Part shown: positions 36,668 through 58,332 of the stretch, piece by piece
Layout: every line of letters starts with the position of its first letter
Numbering within the stretch: the stretch's first letter is position 1
Origin: Arenibacter echinorum
Lineage (GTDB): Bacteria > Bacteroidota > Bacteroidia > Flavobacteriales > Flavobacteriaceae
NCBI RefSeq assembly: GCF_003259375.1
Contig: NZ_QLLN01000005.1
Location: forward strand, 186,001-250,000
Direction: 5' to 3'
DNA: 64,000 nucleotides
Notes under the pieces: generated by a model
Databases searched by the model: none
What the model was told of the DNA's origin: nothing
The model's input: the letters and a program-made list of their open reading frames with translations, nothing else
Program-made: the position numbers and the translations under genes

Positions 36668-36951
36668 AATTTCTCCCTATATCCTTTCTTAAAGAAAAGG
36701 CTCATTAGCGATTATTTTATTTATTTCCCTGCACTGGGGCTTTTCTTAAATCTTATTTTCTCTTTCATTTTTATTATGGCAGCCCACAAACGCTCCTTTC
36801 TATCGGTTTGTGGCCGGGCTATACACTTAATTTTTTTATTCCAAAGTCATAAAAAAGATATCGTTCCTATCCCTGCTGCAAGAAATATCCAACTTCAACC
36901 CAACTTTACATATTCTTTCTTCTTTTGTCTAGACCTAGACCTGCCCTTTCC
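36668..36951. other. Spacer between metH (C-terminal part) and metF
   Basis: This 284-bp spacer is AT-rich and has no convincing gene. On the minus strand it holds an imperfect hairpin, CCTTT-TCTTTAAGA-AAGG, just before metF. I see no riboswitch in it. Confidence 0.5.
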
Positions 36952-39666
36952 CTAATCATCCGCAATATTCGGGGCCAACCATCTTGTTGCCTCTTCCAAG
37001 GGCATCCCTTTTCTCGCTGCAAAGTTGGCCACTTGGTCTTCTTTTATTTTACCTACCCCAAAATAACGAGCTTCTGGATTGCCAAAATAATAACCACTTA
37101 CACTGGCCGCCGGCCACATGGCCAAACTCTCTGTCAATTCTACCCCAATCTTTTCCTTTACCTCCATCAATTCCCACAATGTCAATTTTTCCAAGTGGTC
37201 CGGACATGCAGGATAACCGGGCGCAGGCCGTATCCCTAAATAGGATTCCTTGATCAGCTCCTCATTGCTAAGTCCCTCATCAGCGGCATAACCCCAATGA
37301 TTGATCCTTACTTCCCTATGTAAATATTCCGCGAAAGCCTCGGCGAAACGGTCTGCGAGTGCTTTGACCATTATACTGTTATAGTCGTCCAAATTTTTGC
37401 GGTAACCATCTGCCAATTCATCAGTGCCAAAGCCTGTGGATACGCAAAAACAACCTATGTAATCCTGCAAACCACCTTCTTTGGGGGCAATAAAATCGGA
37501 CAGTGCAAAATTAGGTTTCCCCACATATTTTTTGGCCTGTTGGCGCAAAGTCCTAAAAATAAACTCTTCCCCATTATGGGAAAGGGCAATATCATCATCA
37601 TTAATAGTATTCGCGGGAAACAGCCCAAAAATAGCCTTTGCCTTAAATAGCTTACCATCCAAAATCTTCTGCATCATTGCCTTGGCATCTGCAAAAAGCT
37701 CGGTTGCCTGTTTGCCAACTACCTCATCTTCTAAAATATCCGGATACTTGCCATGCAGCTCCCAACTTCTAAAGAAGGGAGACCAATCTATATATGGCAC
37801 TAATTCGTTCAGGTCAAAATCCTCGATCATTTGAATTCCCAAGGTCTTAGGCTTTACAATTTCGGCCTTTGACCAATCCAATTGATATTTATTTTTCCTG
37901 GCCGCCTCAAGGGTTAAATACTCCTTGTGCTTGCCCCTATTCAGGAATTTTTGCCTAAAGTCGGCATAGTCCAATTTAATGTTTTCCTTATACCTATTGG
38001 ACGATTCCTTTTGTAAAAGGTCGCCCACCACTGTAACTGCCCTGGAAGCATCGTTTACATGCACCACGGCACTCTTATACTGAGGGTCTATTTTAACCGC
38101 TGTATGTGCCTTACTGGTGGTGGCACCCCCGATAAGCAAGGGAACCGTAAAATTTTGTCGCTCCATTTCCTTGGCCAAAAAGACCATCTCGTCCAAGGAT
38201 GGGGTTATAAGACCGCTCAGCCCTATGATATCCACTTTTTCCTCCTTGGCGGCATTAATAATCTTCTCCGGGGGTACCATTACTCCCAAATCTACTATCT
38301 CGTAATTGTTACAGGCCAGGACCACACTAACAATATTTTTTCCTATATCGTGAACATCTCCTTTTACGGTCGCCATTAGAATTTTACCTGCAGACGAGCT
38401 GCTTCCTTCCGGCTGGGGGTTTTTAAGCTTCTCCTCTTCAATAAATGGCAATAGATAAGCCACAGCCTTTTTCATGACCCTGGCCGATTTTACCACCTGG
38501 GGCAAGAACATCTTACCACTTTGAAAAAGATCCCCTACCACGTTCATTCCGGTCATCAAATGCCCTTCTATAACTTCTATAGGTGCTTTAACACTTAAAC
38601 GGGCCGCTTCTACATCCTCTACAATATATTGATCTATTCCCTTGACCAAGGCACGGGTAATCCTATTTTGTAAGGGTTCTTCCCTCCAGGAAAGATCTAT
38701 CTTATTTTCCTTCTCCTTACCAATTACGGTTTCTGCAAAGTCCAATAATCGCTCCGTGGCGTCTTCCCTTCGGTTGAGGATTACATCCTCTACATGCTCT
38801 AAAAGGTCTTTTGGAATATCATCATAGACCTCCAACATACTCGGGTTTACAATTCCCATATTCATCCCCGCCTTTATGGCGTGATAAAGAAACACGGAAT
38901 GCATAGCTTCCCGTACGGGATTATTCCCTCTAAAACTAAAGGACACATTACTTACCCCTCCACTTACACTACAAAAAGGCAAATTTTTCTTTACCCATGC
39001 GGTGGCCTTTATAAAGTCGAGCGCGTTTAACTTATGCTCGTCCATTCCCGTGGCTACGGGAAAAATATTCAAATCGAATATTATATCCTCTGGGGGAAAT
39101 CCTACCTTATCCACCAAAATATTATAGGAGCGTTTGGTGATTTCCAATCGCCTTTCGTAATTATCTGCCTGCCCTACCTCGTCAAAAGCCATAACTATGA
39201 CGGCAGCCCCGTAACGCCTAATTAATTTGGCGTGCTTAATAAACTCTTCCTCCCCTTCCTTGAGACTTATGGAATTCACCACACATTTTCCTTGGACTAC
39301 CTGTAGACCTGCCTCAATAATATCCCATTTAGAGCTATCAATCATGATAGGTACCCGAGCAATATCCGGTTCGGCCACAATAAGGTTCAAGAACTTTACC
39401 ATAACCTCTTTTCCATCAATAAGACCATCGTCCATATTGACATCAATGATCTGAGCTCCGCCTTCTACCTGTTCGCGAGCTATATCCAATGCCTCCTCAA
39501 ACTTCTCTTCTTTAATCAGTCGAAGGAATTTTTTGGAACCCGCCACATTGGTGCGTTCCCCTACATTTACGAAATTGCTTTCTGGGGTAATCACCAAAGG
39601 TTCCAATCCGGAGAGTTTTAAAAACCGTTTTGTAATATGTTGTTCCTTATCCGTTATATTGCTCAT
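36952..39666 (-). CDS. metH: Cobalamin-dependent methionine synthase, pterin, B12 and activation modules (split MetH)
   Basis: This 904-aa protein corresponds to the last three modules of MetH. They are the pterin-binding domain ([17 protein letters not shown], about 30-46, and MIDSSKW), the B12 cap and cobalamin domain with DVHDIGKN near residue 438, whose His is the lower axial cobalt ligand, and the C-terminal SAM-binding reactivation domain (about 590-904, with [15 protein letters not shown]). The homocysteine module is encoded separately at 40649-41662. Between the two halves lies a dehydratase gene. The intact activation domain shows the split enzyme is still meant to work with SAM repair. 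Confidence 0.95.
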
Positions 39667-39710
39667 TATTTTTATATTGACCTAGACATTATAAACACCA
39701 AACTGCGTCT

Positions 39711-40652
39711 TTAAAATGGCAAATTTGATAGTTCCACATTGCCTCCTGAGAGAATGACCCCCACCTTTTTATTTTTAAACTTTTCCCTTTCCTTTAACAA
39801 GGCAGCAAAGGGTACTGCACTAGATGGCTCTATCACCAATTTCATCCGCTCCCAAATTAATTTCATGGCAGCAATAATTTCGTCCTCCTCAACCCTAATG
39901 ATATCAGAGACCAATTCCTTGATAATGGGAAAATTTATATCCCCTAAGTTAGTTTTAAGTCCGTCCGCTATAGTGTTCGCTGATATATTGTACTCTATTT
40001 TCCCGCTCTTAAAGGCTCTATAGGCGTCATCCACTTCCATTGGCTCACCACCTACGACCCTGCAATTATCCCCTAAATAATGGGCGGCCAATGCCGTACC
40101 CGCAAGGAGTCCACCACCTCCTACCGGACTCATAATATATTCCAGAACAGGTTGGTCCTGTAAAAGTTCCAAGGCCGCTGTACCTTGCCCCAAAATCACG
40201 TTCAGGTCATTGGACGGATGTAAAAAAACAGCTCCTTTTTCCGCAACAATGTTTGCTGCCGATTTTTCCCTGGCTTCCAAGGTAGGTTCCGTAATGGTAA
40301 CCAACCCTCCATAAGCTTTCACGGCCTCAATTTTTACGGCCGGGGCACTTGAGGGCATTACTATATAGGCATTCACCCCCAAATTCTTGGCCGCCAAAGC
40401 CAAGGCCTGACCAAAATTTCCGGACGAATGGGTTACCACCCCAGCCTTTTTCTGGGCCTCACTTAATTGTTGGATGGCATTGATAGCACCCCGCATTTTA
40501 AAAGCACCCATTTTTTGAAGGTTCTCACATTTAAAGAAAACCTCCGCCCCAGCTAATTCATTCAGCAAACGGGAGGTGAGCACCGGTGTTCTATGAACAA
40601 AGGGTGCAACCCTGTTCCCTGCCTCAAGAACAATCTGCCTGCTAGGTATCAT
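39711..40652 (-). CDS. Serine/threonine dehydratase or racemase-like PLP enzyme, no regulatory domain
   Basis: This 313-aa fold-II PLP enzyme has the Schiff-base lysine in AFKMRGA (Lys52), [11 protein letters not shown] and the [10 protein letters not shown] phosphate loop. It lacks the C-terminal ACT domain of biosynthetic IlvA, so it is a TdcB or serine-racemase-like form. Its ATG overlaps the stop of the upstream metH N-terminal gene by 4 nt (ATGA), giving translational coupling. It sits between the two metH halves, so it is likely expressed under SAM-I control. Substrate choice cannot be told from sequence. Confidence 0.85.
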
Positions 40653-41662
40653 TGGCTATACGCTTCTAAGCTATTTAGAATTCTAGGCGAATAATCTTTA
40701 ACCACATCGGCCATTGCCTTTATATGTTCGGGAGTGGTCCCACAACATCCACCAACTATATTCACCAAGCCTTTTTCGGCATATTCCTTTATCTGTGCTG
40801 CCATTTCCTCCGGTGTTTCATCATATTCCCCAAAAGCATTGGGCAAACCCGCATTGGGATGGGCAGAAACGGCGTGCTCCGTTTTACTGGAGAGCACCTC
40901 TAAATGTGGCACTAACTGACTAGCCCCTAAGGCACAGTTGAATCCTACGGACAAAATGGGTATATGGCTTATGGATATTAAAAAGGCTTCAGCAGTTTGG
41001 CCGGATAAGGTTCTACCCGAAGCATCGGTTATAGTACCGCTTACCATAATTGGAATATCTATATTTCGTTCTTCCTTCACCTCTTCAATGGCAAATAATG
41101 CAGCCTTGGCATTCAAGGTATCAAAAACTGTTTCCACCAACAAAATATCCACCCCTCCGTCCACAAGGGCTTCCACCTGTTGTTTATAAGCTAATCGTAA
41201 TTCATCAAAAGATACCCCTCTGAAGCCCGGATCATTTACGTCCGGAGACATACTGGCCGTTTTGTTGGTAGGCCCAATACTCCCAGCTACAAAACGCGGC
41301 TTATTGGGTTCTTTGGCAGTAAACTCGTCCGCTACCGCTTTTGCTATTTTAGCCGACTCATAATTTAATTCGTAGACCAAACCTTCCATATGATAGTCTG
41401 CCATCGCAATGGTAGTACTGGAAAAAGTATTGGTTTCAACAATGTCGGCCCCAGCGGCAAAATACAGGCGGTGCACCTCGGCTATAGCTTCCGGCTGGGT
41501 AAGGGACAATAGGTCATTATTTCCCTGTAGGGGATGTTCCCAATCCTTAAATCGATCTCCCCTAAAATCTTCCTCAGTAAACTTATGCCGTTGAAGCATG
41601 GTCCCCATAGCACCATCCAACACCAAAATCCTTTCCTTGAGTACGTCCTGAATATTCTTCAT
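40649..41662 (-). CDS. metH: Homocysteine S-methyltransferase module of split MetH
   Basis: This 337-aa protein equals the N-terminal Hcy-binding TIM barrel of MetH. It has [17 protein letters not shown] and the zinc-binding cysteines in SVGFNC and GGCCGTT. The start [17 protein letters not shown] (ATG 41662) is the natural one. It is the first gene after the SAM-I riboswitch, with a 242-nt expression-platform region between. Confidence 0.93.
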
Positions 41663-41699
41663 ATTACTTTTCAAAAATGTTTGCTCCCTATAGAACAAA

Positions 41700-41726: not shown

Positions 41727-41904
41727 ACTATTTGGGACCACAAAATTAGAAAATTGACACCCGAAAACAAAGTATAACAACCCAGTTATCGGTATCAAAA
41801 AAATAAATAAAATCAAGTAAGGAAAAGTTTTGGACCTGCGTCTTTCTTTATGTTATCTATTCCCAAATGAAATTCCAGATAAACAGAATAAAACATAGGA
41901 TTAG

Positions 41905-42004
41905 AACGTAGCACCTTCTTTATTCTTCGCGATAGTGACCGACTTCGAAAAAGGGTTGCTAAGGCTTCATCGGGTCTAGTCCCTCCGCCTTTCTTGATAA
42001 CGTT
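41905..42004 (-). ncRNA. SAM-I (S-box) riboswitch upstream of metH
   Basis: On the minus strand the leader reads TTATCAAGAAAGGCGGAGGG, then a GACTAGACC bulge, GATGAAGCC and TTAGCAACC, ending GAAGGTGCTACGTT. These are the S-box invariant segments in order. The closing P1 helix is AACGT (42004-42000) with ACGTT (41909-41905). High SAM should turn off the downstream metH-dehydratase-metH transcript. No clear terminator was found in the 242-nt platform, so it may act on translation or through a distant hairpin. Confidence 0.93.
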
Positions 42005-50342: not shown

Positions 50343-51512
50343 TTATCCCAGTGCTTGTTCAATATCTGCTATGATATCATCTATATGCTCCAAGCCCACA
50401 GAAACCCGTACCATACCATCTGTAATTCCGGATGCCAATCTTTCCTCCACGGACAATTTACTGTGCGTGGTAGACGCCGGGTGTGTGACTATACTTCTTG
50501 AGTCCCCCAAATTAGCGGACAATGACAACATTTTTATAGCGTTGAAGAATTTTTGTCCGGCTTCAACCCCTCCCTTTACTTCAAAAGCCACAACGCAGCC
50601 CCCTGCCTTCATCTGTTTCTTAGCCACTTCGTATTTGGGATGCGATTTTAAAAATGGATACTTCACCCAATTCACCTGAGGGTGACTTTCCAGGAATTCG
50701 GCCAGTTTTAGTGCGTTGTCACAATGCTTATCTACTCTGAGCGATAAAGTTTCCAAACTTTTGGATAGTACCCAAGCATTGAAAGGCGATAAAGAAGGTC
50801 CTGTAATCCGGGAAAAACGATATACTTTATCTATCAAAGCCTTGCTACCCACTGTAATACCTGCCAACACCCTTCCTTGACCGTCCATTAATTTTGTTCC
50901 AGAATGGATGACCAAATCGGCCCCATACTTAATAGGCTGCTGCAAATAGGGGGAAGCAAAACAATTATCTATAATATAAATTAAATTGTGTTTTTTGGCA
51001 AACTTGCCCAATACCTCCAGGTCCAAAACATCAACTCCCGGATTGGTAGGAGTTTCCGCATAGATAATTTTAGTTTTTGGAGTGAGCAGTTCCTCCAATT
51101 TATCCAGCTCATCTATCTTAAAATAGCTGGTTGAAACATTCCATTTTGGAAAAAACTGAGTAAACAAACTATGGGTAGACCCGAATATACTTCTAGAAGA
51201 AATAATGTGATCCCCACTGTCCAACAGAGCAGCAAAAGTTGAAAACACGGCCGCCATACCTGATGCAAAGGCAAAACCATCCTCGGCCCCTTCCATCTTG
51301 CAAACCTTTTCTATAAACTCGCTTGAATTGGGATTGCTATACCTTGAATATATATTTCTTTCCTTTTCTTCCGCGAAGGAGGCTCGCATATCTTCAGCAT
51401 CCTCGAAAATAAAACTAGAGGTTAAATACAAAGGTGTGGAATGCTCCAAAAATTGGGTGCGTTCCGTTTGGGTGCGTATTGCTTCCGTTTCAAATTTAAA
51501 TTTCTTCTTCAT
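50343..51512 (-). CDS. metZ: Trans-sulfuration PLP enzyme, O-succinylhomoserine sulfhydrylase type
   Basis: This 389-aa fold-I Cys/Met-metabolism enzyme has YSRYSNPNS, the ETPTNPGVDVLD segment and the PLP lysine in IHSGTKLMDGQGRVLAG. The whole pattern fits MetZ, which makes homocysteine from acyl-homoserine and sulfide. Cystathionine gamma-synthase or methionine gamma-lyase activity cannot be excluded. It lies between the Rrf2 gene and the aspartokinase fusion gene. Confidence 0.82.
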   Translation of the reverse strand: MKKKFKFETEAIRTQTERTQFLEHSTPLYLTSSFIFEDAEDMRASFAEEKERNIYSRYSNPNSSEFIEKVCKMEGAEDGFAFASGMAAVFSTFAALLDSGDHIISSRSIFGSTHSLFTQFFPKWNVSTSYFKIDELDKLEELLTPKTKIIYAETPTNPGVDVLDLEVLGKFAKKHNLIYIIDNCFASPYLQQPIKYGADLVIHSGTKLMDGQGRVLAGITVGSKALIDKVYRFSRITGPSLSPFNAWVLSKSLETLSLRVDKHCDNALKLAEFLESHPQVNWVKYPFLKSHPKYEVAKKQMKAGGCVVAFEVKGGVEAGQKFFNAIKMLSLSANLGDSRSIVTHPASTTHSKLSVEERLASGITDGMVRVSVGLEHIDDIIADIEQALG

Positions 51513-51735: not shown

Positions 51736-54700
51736 TTACCCTTTTTCCGCAATACGTAATATATCCCCAAACACACCCCTGGCCGTTACTGCCGCTCCGG
51801 CACCTGCACCTTGGATAACCAAAGGATGTTGCCCATAAGACTCCGTATATATTTCTATTATGGAATCGGAACCTTTTATCTGTCCTAGTGCACTTTCTTT
51901 GGGAACCGAGATCAATTTTACCTCTAATTTTCCTTTTTCCTTTTGCAGGTCTCCTGATAGATCTCCTACGTAACGCAGTACATGACCTGGTTTTTGGGCT
52001 TTCTTTATCTTACTAAACTTATCATCCAAGATATCCAATCGCTCCAAAAAGCTCTTTACGTCACCATCTTGCAGCGACTCGGGGATTAAGTTTTCAATTA
52101 AAATATCCGAAAACTCATTGCTTAAATCCAGTTCCCTGGCCAAAATCAGCAATTTTCTCCCTACATCATTACCGGAAAGATCTTCGCGGGGATCCGGTTC
52201 TGTATACCCCAATTCCATAGCTTCTTTTAGAATTACGGAGAATAAGGCATCCTTTTCCGAAAAAGTGTTGAAAATATAGCTTAAGGATCCAGAGAACACT
52301 CCTTTTATCCTTGTAATATTCTCTCCTGAAAGATGTAACAATTTAATGGTGTCTATCAACGGTAAACCCGCACCAACATTGGTTTCATATAAATATTGTT
52401 TTTGATGTTTGGCAAGTTCCTCCCTAAGCAACTGGTAATAATCGAAGCGCAAGGTATTGGCAATCTTATTGGACGACACCAAATCAAAACCGTTATCCAC
52501 AAAATCAAAATAGGAGGCCACAAATTCCTCATTGGCAGTATTGTCTACCGCAATAAGGTTCTCCAAATGATTATCCTTGGCATATTTAAATATATCGTTT
52601 AATTTATAGGGTACTGCCTTGGTCTCCATGGAACTTTTCCAATTTTTGGAAATACCATTTTTATTCAAAAGCACCTTTTTAGAATTGGCAACTGCAAAAA
52701 CATTGATATTGATGCCCTTCCTTTTCTCTATGGTCTTATTGGATTTAAGAATTTGATCAATGAGGGTACCCCCCACATTTCCATGACCAAAAATAGCCAA
52801 ATTTACTTTTTTACTTATCCCGAAAATCTGACCATGCACTACATTAAGGGCCTTGTGCAGATCGGATTTTTTAACGACCAAACTCACATTCTTGCCCGAA
52901 ATAGTATTGTTGAACAACAAAGGAACTACCTGGTTCTTTATAAGAGCATTAAAAGGCTTATGGAAGGTACTCAAATCCTGTCCAACAATGGAAATAACCG
53001 ATACTTGGTCCACCACCGTAATATTATTGATGTCCTGCAATTTAAAATCGGTTTGAAATTCCTCTTCCAAAGAAGATTTTGCCAAAGCCGCATTTTTGGC
53101 GTCGACCACCAAACCAATGCCTCTTTCCGATGACCCCTGGGAAATTATACTTACACTTATGTTATTATTGCCCATTGTCCTAAAGATACGGGCATCTACC
53201 CCCACCTTGCCCAATAAACCACGACCTTCCAAATTGATCAGGGCCATGTTTTCAATAACGGATAAGGATTTTATACCTTCCTTACTGGTCTTGGCACTGA
53301 TTAAAGTTCCTTCATTATCGTTGTTGAAGGTATTTAGGATGCGCAGTGGAATATTCTTTTCTATTAGGGGGATAATTGTTTTTGCGTGCAAAATATTGGT
53401 GCCAAAATTCGCCAACTCGTTCGCTTCACTATAGGAAAGTTCCGAGATTCTTTTGGCCTCCGTGACCAAATCAGGATTGGCCGTAAAAATACCGTCCACA
53501 TGGGTATAGTTCTGCAATTCCTCGGCATTGAGGTAGTTGGCCAATAAGGCAGCGGAATAATTGCTCCCATTTCTACCCAAAGTGGTAGTTTCGTTAAGTT
53601 CATTGGAGGCAATAAAACCGGTGGTTACCGCTACGGCATCCAGATCCAATTTCCCAAATTCACCTTTTACATTTTCCTTGGACAAGGTCTCCAAGACCTT
53701 TGCATCCCCAAAGTTGGAATCTGTTTTAATGAGCTGTCTGGAATCAATAAACTTGGCATTGACACCTTTCCCTATAAGTAATTTGGTTACCAATTTTGCA
53801 GAGAGCAATTCTCCATAAGCCAAAACTTGGTCCTTTATTTTAGGGCTATAATCTCCCAAAAGCGCTACACCTTCAAACAGCTTTACCAATCCCTTAAATT
53901 CCTCCGAGAGATTTACATTACCATAAGCGTGTTGTTGATATTTTTCAAATTCTTCAAAATCCTTTACATAATCCAACCCCTTGGCCGCTTTGTCCAGCAT
54001 CGCTTCCAATTCGTCCGTAGCCTTGTTCCTGGCCGAAACCACTACGGCAATATTTTCACCATCGGCAACCTTGTCTGTAATTATCTGAAGTACCGTATCC
54101 AACCCCTCTCCATTGGCCAATGACTTGCCACCAAATTTTAGGACCTTGACTTTTTTAGATCTTCCATTACGCTCAAAAACTCCCTTTAGCAACTCCTCCA
54201 TTTGATTGAATTCTATCAAGAAGGCATCATGCCCATGCAAGGAATGAATTTCCCCATAGGTTACATTACTGTTGGCCTGGGCCAATTTCTTAAAAGTATC
54301 TTTGTTTTCCTGGGCCGTAAAAAAAAGGTCGGAATCTACCCCAATAATATGGATATTGGTATCACTATTCTGAAGATTAATAAATGCCTCTTCCCCATTT
54401 CTATTGATATCAATTGTCTTAAGCAGCTGATTCATTAGTTTGTAGGCAGACAATTGAAATCGCTCCTGTAATTTTTTACCGTGGTGCGTTAGCCAACTCT
54501 CCACATTAAAGACTTTCAGCTCCTCATTGGTGCTTCTTTTAAAGCGCTCCTTAAAGGATTCCGGTGTCCTATAACAGAGCATGGCATGCATACGTGCATC
54601 ATGCACTGGCTGCTTGGAGTTTATTAAAAACTGTTCCTGAATCTGGCAATTGGCAATAAGCCAGTCCGTAGACTTCCAATCAGATGCTACCGGAATAAGA

Positions 54701-55122
54701 TGTTCCGTTAAATGAGGATCGATGGCCGCCATTTCCCAAGCGATACCTCCACCTAAAGAACCCCCTATAAGCGCATATAACTTACTTATTTTTAAGGCCT
54801 CCAATCCCAGAAGGAAAATTTTGGCAATGTCCTTTGCAACAAAATCCTTATAATTATCTATCACAAACCCGTCATACCCGTTTCCTGGTATATTAAAGCA
54901 AAGAATGGTGTACTTCTTGGTGTCAATACATTTGCCCTCTCCTATCAATGTTGTCCACCAACCATGTTCGCCCGCTACATTGGAATTACCTGTAAGGGCA
55001 TGGTTCACCATTATAATTGGCGCGGTATGCAAGGGTTGGCCAAAGATCTCGTAGGACAAATTAATATCCAAAGTTTTGCCACTATAGGTAATGTATTTAT
55101 TTATTGAAAGATGATGTAACAT
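51736..55122 (-). CDS. Trifunctional fusion: MetX-like homoserine acyltransferase, aspartokinase, homoserine dehydrogenase
   Basis: This 1128-aa protein has three parts. Residues 1-320 form a MetX-like alpha/beta hydrolase with NHALTG, nucleophile Ser122 in GGSLGGG, Asp265 and His298 in LHGHDAF. Residues 325-770 form an aspartokinase with KFGGKS (329-334), the catalytic region TTLGRNGSN and two ACT-like regulatory segments (about 620-770). Residues 772-1128 form a homoserine dehydrogenase with GHGNVG (779-784), SSNKIAN and GYTEPDPREDLSG. So steps 1, 3 and 4 from aspartate to acyl-homoserine share one chain. Only the aspartate semialdehyde dehydrogenase step is missing. Overlap with MetY/MetZ genes supports use in methionine synthesis. 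Confidence 0.92.
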   Translation of the reverse strand: MLHHLSINKYITYSGKTLDINLSYEIFGQPLHTAPIIMVNHALTGNSNVAGEHGWWTTLIGEGKCIDTKKYTILCFNIPGNGYDGFVIDNYKDFVAKDIAKIFLLGLEALKISKLYALIGGSLGGGIAWEMAAIDPHLTEHLIPVASDWKSTDWLIANCQIQEQFLINSKQPVHDARMHAMLCYRTPESFKERFKRSTNEELKVFNVESWLTHHGKKLQERFQLSAYKLMNQLLKTIDINRNGEEAFINLQNSDTNIHIIGVDSDLFFTAQENKDTFKKLAQANSNVTYGEIHSLHGHDAFLIEFNQMEELLKGVFERNGRSKKVKVLKFGGKSLANGEGLDTVLQIITDKVADGENIAVVVSARNKATDELEAMLDKAAKGLDYVKDFEEFEKYQQHAYGNVNLSEEFKGLVKLFEGVALLGDYSPKIKDQVLAYGELLSAKLVTKLLIGKGVNAKFIDSRQLIKTDSNFGDAKVLETLSKENVKGEFGKLDLDAVAVTTGFIASNELNETTTLGRNGSNYSAALLANYLNAEELQNYTHVDGIFTANPDLVTEAKRISELSYSEANELANFGTNILHAKTIIPLIEKNIPLRILNTFNNDNEGTLISAKTSKEGIKSLSVIENMALINLEGRGLLGKVGVDARIFRTMGNNNISVSIISQGSSERGIGLVVDAKNAALAKSSLEEEFQTDFKLQDINNITVVDQVSVISIVGQDLSTFHKPFNALIKNQVVPLLFNNTISGKNVSLVVKKSDLHKALNVVHGQIFGISKKVNLAIFGHGNVGGTLIDQILKSNKTIEKRKGININVFAVANSKKVLLNKNGISKNWKSSMETKAVPYKLNDIFKYAKDNHLENLIAVDNTANEEFVASYFDFVDNGFDLVSSNKIANTLRFDYYQLLREELAKHQKQYLYETNVGAGLPLIDTIKLLHLSGENITRIKGVFSGSLSYIFNTFSEKDALFSVILKEAMELGYTEPDPREDLSGNDVGRKLLILARELDLSNEFSDILIENLIPESLQDGDVKSFLERLDILDDKFSKIKKAQKPGHVLRYVGDLSGDLQKEKGKLEVKLISVPKESALGQIKGSDSIIEIYTESYGQHPLVIQGAGAGAAVTARGVFGDILRIAEKG

Positions 55123-55264: not shown

Positions 55265-56557
55265 TTACGCTAAAACAGATTTATCAATGACTGAAAATGC
55301 CTGCACCAAATCGGCTTTTATATCTTCAATGTCCTCCAAACCTACACATAAACGTATTAGGTCTTTTGTTACACCGGTAGTCTGTTGTGCTTCGTCATCC
55401 AATTGTTGGTGTGTAGTACTCGCAGGGTGAATAATTAAAGACTTGGTATCCCCAATATTTGCCAATAAGGAAAATAGCTTGGTTTCATCTACCACCTTTT
55501 TGGCCGATTCGTAGCCTCCTTTAACCCCGAAAGTAACTATTCCACTTTGTCCGTTTGGAAGGTACTTCTTAGCCAAGGAATAATAGGGGCTGGATGAAAG
55601 GCCAGGATAGTTTACCCATGCCACTTCCTTTCTACCCTCTAACCATTTAGCCAATTCCAAAGCATTTTCACTGTGTTTCTTGATACGAAGTTCCAATGTT
55701 TCCAAACCTTGAATAATCTGAAAGGCATTAAATGGGCTCAAGGCAGCACCAAGATCCCTTAAACCTTCAATTCTCACTTTTGCAATAAAGGCCGCTGCAC
55801 CCAAGACATCGTGATAAACCAAACCGTGGTATCCAGCAGATGGCTCTGTAAACTCAGGGAATTTACCACTGCTCCAATCGAAAGTACCAGCATCTATTAT
55901 GACACCTCCCATAGAAGTACCATTACCATTGATATATTTTGTAAGGGAATGTATTACGATGTTTGCTCCGTGTTCAATTGGTTTTATCAAAGCACTTGTG
56001 GCAACCGTATTATCGACTATAAAAGGAATTTTGGCTTTTTTGGCCACTTCGGATATTGCCTTCAAATCCAGTACGTCCAATTTTGGATTCCCAAGGGATT
56101 CTACAAAAATTGCTCTGGTATTTTCCTGAATAGCATTGGCAAAATTCTCCTCGTCCCCTGGCTCAACAAAGGTGGTGGTAATTCCCAATCTAGGCAAAGT
56201 CACTGCCAACAGATTATAGGTGCCTCCATAAAGGCTACTGGAAGCCACAATATGATCCCCCGTTCTAAGCAAAACCAACAAAGCAGTAGAAATGGCTGCC
56301 GTACCGGATGCGGTAACCACACTGGCAAGACCACCTTCCAAAGCCGCCAAACGCTGCTCTAAAATGTCATTGGTAGGATTGTTCAGCCTGGTATAAATAA
56401 AGCCAGGTTCTGATAAATTAAAAAGATTGGCCGCATGGTCCGTATTATTAAATACATAAGCGGTATTCTGATAAATAGGTACGGCCCTGGTGCCAGCTGT
56501 TAATTTTGTGTCATGTCCGGCATGCAAAGCGTTTGTTGAAAATTTTTGAGTACTCAT
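55265..56557 (-). CDS. metY: O-acetylhomoserine sulfhydrylase
   Basis: This 430-aa PLP enzyme starts MSTQKFSTNALHAGHD. It has IHSLTKYINGNGTSMGG with the PLP lysine, and the length and insertion (about 215-250) of MetY rather than MetB/MetZ. It makes homocysteine from O-acetylhomoserine and sulfide, and so fits the MetX domain of the fusion gene 142 nt downstream. It is first in a transcript under a SAM-I riboswitch. Start at ATG 56557; a longer frame from 56605 is not conserved. Confidence 0.9.
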   Translation of the reverse strand: MSTQKFSTNALHAGHDTKLTAGTRAVPIYQNTAYVFNNTDHAANLFNLSEPGFIYTRLNNPTNDILEQRLAALEGGLASVVTASGTAAISTALLVLLRTGDHIVASSSLYGGTYNLLAVTLPRLGITTTFVEPGDEENFANAIQENTRAIFVESLGNPKLDVLDLKAISEVAKKAKIPFIVDNTVATSALIKPIEHGANIVIHSLTKYINGNGTSMGGVIIDAGTFDWSSGKFPEFTEPSAGYHGLVYHDVLGAAAFIAKVRIEGLRDLGAALSPFNAFQIIQGLETLELRIKKHSENALELAKWLEGRKEVAWVNYPGLSSSPYYSLAKKYLPNGQSGIVTFGVKGGYESAKKVVDETKLFSLLANIGDTKSLIIHPASTTHQQLDDEAQQTTGVTKDLIRLCVGLEDIEDIKADLVQAFSVIDKSVLA

Positions 56558-56647
56558 GATTTCTTGTTTTTTTATATTATTAAAATAGATAAAATAAAAA
56601 GCCAAAACAAATAATGCGGACAGTGCAATATTATAAAATCAAAAAGT

Positions 56648-56676
56648 TAAAAAGAAAATCAGTTACAGAAGTAACC
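56648..56676 (-). terminator. Possible SAM-I expression-platform terminator before metY
   Basis: GTTAC-TTCT-GTAAC (56675-56662) is followed on the minus strand by a T-rich run (TGATTTTCTTTTT). The stem is short (5 bp), so the call is tentative. It lies between the riboswitch and metY. Confidence 0.35.
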
Positions 56677-56740
56677 GTTAGTGTTATCTGCCATGGATAC
56701 TGTAAAAGAAACCAAAATAATTTGGCCCAGTATTTAGGTA

Positions 56741-56826
56741 GAATTTAGCACCTTCTTTAATTAATGATCAAAGGGTTGCTAAGGCTTCAAAGGGTCTATT
56801 CCCTCCACCTTTCTTGATAACGATTC
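56741..56826 (-). ncRNA. SAM-I (S-box) riboswitch upstream of metY
   Basis: The minus strand reads TTATCAAGAAAGGTGGAGGG, AATAGACCC, TTTGAAGCC, TTAGCAACCC and GAAGGTGC, the S-box core in order. It matches the metH riboswitch at nearly every core position. P1 is weaker, with GAAT/ATTC (56826-56823 and 56744-56741). It should repress metY and the MetX-aspartokinase-homoserine dehydrogenase gene when SAM is high. Confidence 0.92.
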
Positions 56827-58242: not shown

Positions 58243-58317
58243 TTAAACTGCTTTAGCATTTAGTTATGCCGAAACTAATTCAGCACATGAGGTTGCAATC
58301 AGTCAAATCCTTCCTCG
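58243..58317 (-). ncRNA. SAM-II-like riboswitch with an extra loop hairpin, upstream of metK
   Basis: Minus strand: P1 is GAGG (58316-58313) with CCTC (58292-58289). Its loop carries GATTTGACTGATTGCAA, close to the SAM-II loop GATTTAACCGTATTGCA. After a spacer comes the conserved GCTAAAG. A pseudoknot forms between loop ACTG (58303-58300) and CAGT (58250-58247). The spacer holds a 6-bp TTAGTT/AACTAA hairpin absent from the short alphaproteobacterial class. Assignment is by eye from remembered consensus. Position before metK supports SAM sensing. Confidence 0.7.
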
Positions 58318-58332
58318 ATATTTTTTCGCGTA

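Follow-up and report, generated by a model that had tools for sequence, protein, structure and literature searches.

Bifunctional enzymes that join aspartokinase (AK) to homoserine dehydrogenase (HSD) are known from Escherichia coli as AKI-HSDI (ThrA) and AKII-HSDII (MetL), which share the domain order AK-ACT-ACT-HSD. The homoserine O-acyltransferase MetX is represented by solved structures (PDB 2pl5 and 2b61), and methionine operons under SAM-I riboswitches carry the S-adenosylmethionine (SAM) aptamer before metY or directly before metX. Here we analyze a stretch of 64,000 nucleotides from Arenibacter echinorum (contig NZ_QLLN01000005.1, positions 186,001 to 250,000; hereafter the window), in which a single intact open reading frame (ORF) on the minus strand (51736..55122) encodes a 1128-residue protein composed of a MetX-like domain, an aspartokinase-fold domain, an ACT region and an HSD domain. 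With a probability of roughly 0.72, we regard this protein as a methionine-branch HSD-MetX enzyme, encoded in a SAM-riboswitch operon and containing a conserved pseudo-aspartokinase/ACT module. It shares the AK-ACT-ACT-HSD order with ThrA and MetL, and like MetL it adjoins methionine genes. In contrast to both, it possesses an N-terminal MetX part, its AK catalytic Asp is replaced, its second ACT motif is lost, and its HSD falls into a set of its own on the HSD tree, which bears out the distinction from ThrA-type AK-HSDs drawn in a preliminary description of this DNA. Compared with other SAM-I methionine operons, the window operon adds a homoserine-making enzyme fused to MetX. A literature search by titles and abstract openings, with subscription journals mostly outside it, named no such fusion and no inactive aspartokinase of this type.

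The fusion of MetX to AK-HSD in one gene is real. Pfam and NCBIfam searches place MetX/Abhydrolase_1 within residues 12-315, AA_kinase at 324-597, ACT_9 at 629-689, NAD_binding_3 at 779-913 and Homoserine_dh at 921-1122. These results agree with the preliminary description, which had proposed one 1128-residue chain with MetX-like, aspartokinase and HSD parts, and both motifs it named, KFGGKS and GHGNVG, are found in the protein. A scan for relatives gave 495 encoding stretches, and each of the best 80 of these 495, which were kept, contains one stop-free frame of 1128-1177 residues; no frameshift is found at the junction of residues 320-325. The kept relatives span Arenibacter, Maribacter, Zobellia, Cellulophaga, Eudoraea, Muricauda and Flagellimonas, the closest named ones being Arenibacter genomes (six at 95-97% identity). 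Among 299 genomes sampled from the window's own family, 240 contain a MetX match. Of the 150 MetX matches listed for this sample, weaker matches being outside the list, 131 sit within an uninterrupted frame of 1064 residues or more; this count was made by eye and reflects frame length, not a reading of the other domains. One of the other 19 listed matches is a 517-residue frame. Two candidate fusions elsewhere were rejected. In family f2, where open frames of 829-859 residues suggested a second fused form, the examined loci have metX and HSD as separate ORFs, and in genome G274 of another family of the phylum (33% identity over residues 11-1125) metX and AK-HSD are likewise separate. The AlphaFold model of the fusion is modest (mean predicted local distance difference test score 70.1, predicted template modelling score 0.47, with much of the MetX lid below 50 on the former scale) and served for fold identity only. 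The 50 PDB entries listed as its matches belong to aspartokinases and HSDs, with no MetX among those listed.

The MetX-like domain comprises residues 1-318 (54169..55122; this and all further features of the cluster lie on the minus strand) and matches TIGR01392 with E=1e-51 and 176 bits, against a cut-off of 500. The GGS nucleophile elbow, the Asp, the GHD motif and the lid motifs of the solved MetX structures align across the whole domain, which differs from these structures in being fused to HSD and in its length, short by some 40 residues (304, compared with 343 model positions). S122 (54757-54759), D265 (54328-54330) and H298 (54229-54231) occupy the alignment positions of Ser, Asp and His in 2pl5 and 2b61, which we take to be the catalytic triad. 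None of the three varies among the 92 fused sequences, and H41, R177, R185, Y227 and D299 are equally invariant. The triad claimed earlier is thus intact, and the alignment gives no sign of lost acyltransferase residues. In the genome search, the NCBIfam MetX model finds matches in 9 of 14 control genomes, in none of the 14 above its cut-off. The same search found neither a second MetX match nor a MetA/HTS match in the window genome, and the fused MetX part is the only homoserine acyltransferase found there. As the score is below the equivalog cut-off and the domain is shorter, homoserine is its presumed substrate. The context supports this assignment, since the genome, with no other MetX and no MetA/HTS match, does contain MetY and a MetZ-like gene as well as, named by eye, metF and a split metH.

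The HSD domain (residues 771-1127, 51742..52812; PF00742 and PF03447) aligns over its full length with yeast HSD 1ebf (E=3e-56). This alignment retains the EPDPR motif together with the Lys and Asp presumed to be catalytic. K886, E975, D977, D981, D986 and K990 are invariant in all 92 fused sequences, in line with the intact HSD described earlier. In the HSD tree, one set of 61 rows (99*) holds the fused and unfused HSDs of the methionine branch, and the 39 ThrA paralogues fall outside it; this is a quick tree, which gave long-branch warnings for E. coli MetL and ThrA.

The aspartokinase-fold domain (residues 324-600, 53323..54153) is predicted from residue alignments to be catalytically dead. 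We compared 110 family members, 92 fused and 18 unfused, with ThrA paralogues from the same family (20) and from elsewhere in the phylum (19), using the residue numbering of E. coli LysC. The paralogues were 40 hand-picked, not random, sequences, of which one row in a wrong frame (PARX_L187) was dropped. Two positions, whose roles we take over from the amino-acid-kinase family with Asp162 of N-acetylglutamate kinase as the parallel, set the family apart. At LysC D202, which we take to be the catalytic Asp of the amino-acid-kinase family, all 110 members have Asn (N521 in the window protein, 53560-53562), whereas all 39 paralogues have Asp. At D222, which we assign to the nucleotide side, all 110 members have His (H541, 53500-53502); here 38 of the 39 paralogues have Asp and one has His. 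E. coli ThrA, MetL and LysC keep Asp at both positions, and both replacements recur in seven further loci (L195, L199, L200 and L208-L211). The domain had been read earlier as a working third enzyme; its KFGG motif is indeed present, but these two replacements, found without exception in the family, leave that reading unsupported. Moreover, all members have Arg at S41 and none has Lys at K257, where Lys is found in 37 of the 39 paralogues. T12 is replaced by Lys in 100 of the 110 members, and R232 by Asp or Glu in 107. On the other hand K8, T45, E119, R198 and S201 are kept in all 110.

The aspartate pocket of the domain appears to be retained. In LysC, Ala40, Thr45, Glu119, Phe184 and Ser201 are reported to contact aspartate, with Arg198 forming a salt bridge (PMC5481828). 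Each of these residues is kept in 109-110 of the 110 members; locus L200, which is outside this count, has Lys at R198. The fused AK is likely to be enzymatically dead with its aspartate pocket kept. We searched 395 genomes with a degenerate DNA pattern for the GRNGSNY motif, and it matched in 52 of them, 32 in the family and 20 outside. Ten extra sites, nine of them outside the family and covering nine of the 20 outside genomes, were checked by tblastn, and none of these ten lies in an aspartokinase gene. The distant metX and AK-HSD pair in G274 (locus L142) keeps D202, D222 and K257, and so the change at D202 and D222 seems to belong to the lineage of the window protein. The same locus has a degenerate ACT region next to its intact kinase residues, the reverse of the window protein.

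The tandem ACT region occupies residues 620-768 (52819..53265; ACT_9 and alignment). All 25 aligned family members keep the ISQGSSE motif in the first ACT. In the second ACT, the window protein reads FNNTISGKN and the other members have variants of this, at a site occupied by QGSSE, QGASE or QGSTE in ThrA proteins. The motif of the Q-x-S-S-E type, expected in both ACTs of a ThrA-type protein, is thus missing from the second. In plant AK-HSD, the second ACT site governs the inhibition of HSD by threonine. With the second motif lost and the first kept, altered threonine control of the fusion is plausible. The middle AK/ACT module may have a regulatory function.

The unfused relatives share the gene order of the fusion and the same HSD set on the tree. 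They differ in that their proteins are separate and that the AK core is absent from the types with metX followed by ACT-HSD or by HSD. In a neighbouring family from the same taxonomic order, 8 of 8 loci consist of metX and an ACT-HSD of 513-525 residues without kinase core. We also took 20 further loci of the window's family for their unusual or diverse frames. In four of them (L193, L197, L204 and L205) metX is followed by a stand-alone HSD without AK or ACT, with a ThrA-like AK-HSD further along in L204, and nine have metX but no HSD within the fetched stretch. Particularly, L193 (genome G450) is nested in the fused clade (branch 100/98 in the tree of MetX plus HSD), and its kinase core was therefore probably lost after fusion, from a fused ancestor. 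Four unfused loci that also carry AK-HSD (L122, L125, L126 and L127) have a third, stand-alone HSD after metY, with 46% identity to the fused HSD.

The arrangement of the unfused loci also points to how the fusion arose. The distance from the metX stop to the first AK match is 1-24 nt in 13 of 14 unfused AK-bearing loci and 118 nt in L199, and the two genes are in the same frame in 3 of the 14. With a gap of 1-24 nt, the loss of a single stop, or else a small indel, would be enough to join them. On the tree built from MetX plus HSD (49 rows) the fused label has to change three times, most simply by a fusion in the large clade (22 rows, 99/98), a second in L133, which sits within an otherwise unfused clade (100/100), and a return to the unfused state in L193. 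The HSD-only tree needs seven label changes, at least four of them forced by starred branches. Most likely there were two fusion events, in each of which the stop separating abutting metX and AK-HSD genes disappeared; as neither tree alone separates gain from loss, the number two is likely rather than established.

The genomes with the fusion contain further enzymes for the upper pathway. The window genome has a separate ThrA (815 residues) and LysC (417 residues), and hence the separate thrA that the preliminary description had suggested looking for. Another aspartokinase above the family cut-off occurs in 18 of 18 fused genomes tested, and a ThrA-like one in 16 of the 18. In genome G569 (assembly 99% complete), the fusion is the only HSD match and is accompanied by a thrB match. 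Unless an HSD was missed there, homoserine must leave the fusion for threonine synthesis. Homoserine shared with ThrB means that the fusion enforces no strict delivery to MetX, and strict channelling is unlikely. The earlier proposal that the fusion channels homoserine to methionine instead of threonine is accordingly doubtful. In genome G029 the fusion is likewise the only HSD match, and this genome has two other aspartokinases, no ThrA-like AK-HSD and no thrB match.

The fusion belongs to a methionine/cysteine gene cluster on the minus strand. In this cluster SAM-II and metK (named by eye) are followed by SAM-I, metY and the fusion; the MetZ-like gene comes next, and after it an Rrf2-type regulator and genes for sulfate assimilation. 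The operon is presumably co-transcribed. The O-acetylhomoserine sulfhydrylase MetY is encoded upstream of the fusion at 55265..56605 (TIGR01326, 647 bits, cut-off 495.1), and its translation probably begins at an ATG that is residue 17 of the ORF. Downstream, 50343..51512 encodes a MetZ-like O-succinylhomoserine/O-acetylhomoserine sulfhydrylase (PRK08133, 509.9 bits, cut-off 522). The SAM-I aptamer lies upstream of metY at 56715..56823 (RF00162, 64.1 bits). Just after it, at 56660..56677, a pattern match identifies a terminator-like hairpin with a T-rich tail, a possible expression platform of the riboswitch; terminator-like sites are rarer in the region (3) than in shuffles (mean 9.2).

The neighbourhood is conserved among the 72 of the 80 kept relatives that have full flanks. 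On the same strand, metY lies at most 2 kb upstream of the fused gene in 70 of these 72 loci (the exceptions are L112 and L114), and the MetZ-like gene lies downstream in 71. Of 11 fused loci scanned, 10 carry a SAM-I aptamer. Nine of these aptamers precede metY and one, in L112, directly precedes the fused gene with no metY between; in L075 none reached the threshold. These observations corroborate the SAM-I and MetY setting claimed earlier. A second set of 15 loci comprises ten unfused AK-bearing loci, four without AK core and one fused locus. In this set the aptamer stands directly before metX, or before the fused gene in L133, in 13 of 15 loci (12 of the 14 unfused ones); the exceptions are L128, where it has another position, and L129, where no SAM-I aptamer was found.

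Other features of the window involve further RNA elements and methionine genes. A SAM-II riboswitch (58243-58322) precedes metK, near the SAM-I aptamer, placing unrelated riboswitch classes side by side, and both classes occur in 8 of the 11 fused loci scanned. MetH is apparently split on the minus strand (named by eye) into an N-part of 349 residues (40649-41698) and a C-part of 904 residues (36952-39666), the whole stretch being 36952-41698. An ORF resembling pyridoxal-phosphate-dependent serine/threonine dehydratases (39711-40652, by eye) lies between the two parts. A second SAM-I riboswitch (41850-42003) is located ahead of the split MetH ORFs, and a Flavo-1 RNA match (36808-36881, 43.9 bits, gathering threshold 42), also present in L130 and L131, lies between the metH-like C-part and metF.

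Taken as a methionine-branch enzyme, the fusion would work as follows. Aspartate semialdehyde would come from Asd together with the separate kinases ThrA and LysC, and the fused HSD would reduce it to homoserine. The N-terminal MetX would acylate this product, to which MetY and the MetZ-like enzyme, both encoded next to the fusion, would then add sulfide. SAM would set the transcription of the operon through the SAM-I riboswitch, and the pseudo-aspartokinase and ACT domains would be retained as a structural or regulatory module. Several points weigh against this reading. The MetX part scores far under the NCBIfam MetX equivalog cut-off, and the literature search gave no paper for the catalytic role of D202 or the nucleotide-side role of D222. 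The loss of K257 is not diagnostic, as E. coli MetL has Pro and the LysC of the window genome has Ser at this position, which rejects K257 as sole proof of a dead kinase. In addition, the AK part reaches 320 bits on the aspartate-kinase model (cut-off 208.7) and is under strong purifying selection. The ratio of nonsynonymous to synonymous substitution is 0.032 for AK, against 0.031 for HSD, 0.027 for MetX and 0.009 for ACT, pooled over all, hence non-independent, pairs of seven close Arenibacter-like sequences; distant pairs are mostly saturated at synonymous sites. Mean pairwise identity over the 92 fused sequences is lowest in AK (0.713, with 0.789 for MetX, 0.775 for ACT and 0.770 for HSD), and AK is the least conserved part in the ThrA paralogues too (0.617).

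The alternatives differ mainly in what they ask of the kinase domain. The preliminary description favoured a true trifunctional enzyme with AK, HSD and MetX all active, which agrees with the full length of every domain, the AK score above its family cut-off, the five LysC residues from K8 to S201 kept in all members and the lack of K257 in E. coli MetL, presumably an active aspartokinase. We consider it unlikely, because D202 and D222 are replaced throughout the family while the paralogues almost always keep Asp, because some relatives have no AK core beside metX, and because other kinases occur in every fused genome tested. A neofunctionalised amino-acid kinase, retuned to a different reaction or substrate, would account for the fixation of the replacing residues (N521, H541 and R365 in all 110 members, K333 in 100) and for the purifying selection, which, together with the score above the aspartate-kinase cut-off, leaves some room for a retuned yet working kinase. 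The aspartate contacts reported for LysC are unchanged, however, so that such a kinase would still have to act on aspartate or something closely similar, and relatives without AK core retain metX and HSD; this alternative is quite improbable. Homoserine channelling from HSD to MetX as the purpose of the fusion fits two consecutive pathway steps on one chain and the SAM-I aptamer before the operon, but MetX and HSD are located at opposite ends of the chain, the proteins stay separate in many relatives, and in G569 the sole HSD match is the fusion while a thrB match is also present, so that homoserine must get to ThrB there; channelling as the purpose is thus improbable. A sequencing or assembly artefact joining two genes, suggested by the short distance between them in unfused relatives, is negligible in view of the single open frames in all 80 kept relatives from many assemblies and in 131 of the 150 family-sample matches.

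Within the methionine-branch reading, a more specific and speculative proposal is that the pseudo-aspartokinase may be a metabolite sensor, which has given up phosphoryl transfer, keeps the aspartate pocket and sets the activity of HSD and MetX according to aspartate; we hold this rather doubtful. If true, flux into the methionine branch would be gated at both homoserine steps by the first precursor of the pathway, with the ACT ligand altered.

The fusion passes the NCBIfam model for bifunctional aspartate kinase/homoserine dehydrogenase I (ThrA-I, 792.5 bits against a cut-off of 726), and automatic annotation would thus give it this name. Judged by its residues, the "bifunctional aspartokinase" label is probably wrong on the kinase, and it is silent on MetX. 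Fused frames of such size occur in at least 131 of the 299 sampled family genomes, and a metabolic model that relied on this name would include a nonexistent aspartokinase and could overlook the homoserine acyltransferase. With its origin in a metabolic amino-acid kinase, its place between two enzymes and its absence from some relatives, the pseudokinase would represent a natural experiment in the conversion of an enzyme domain into a regulatory domain.

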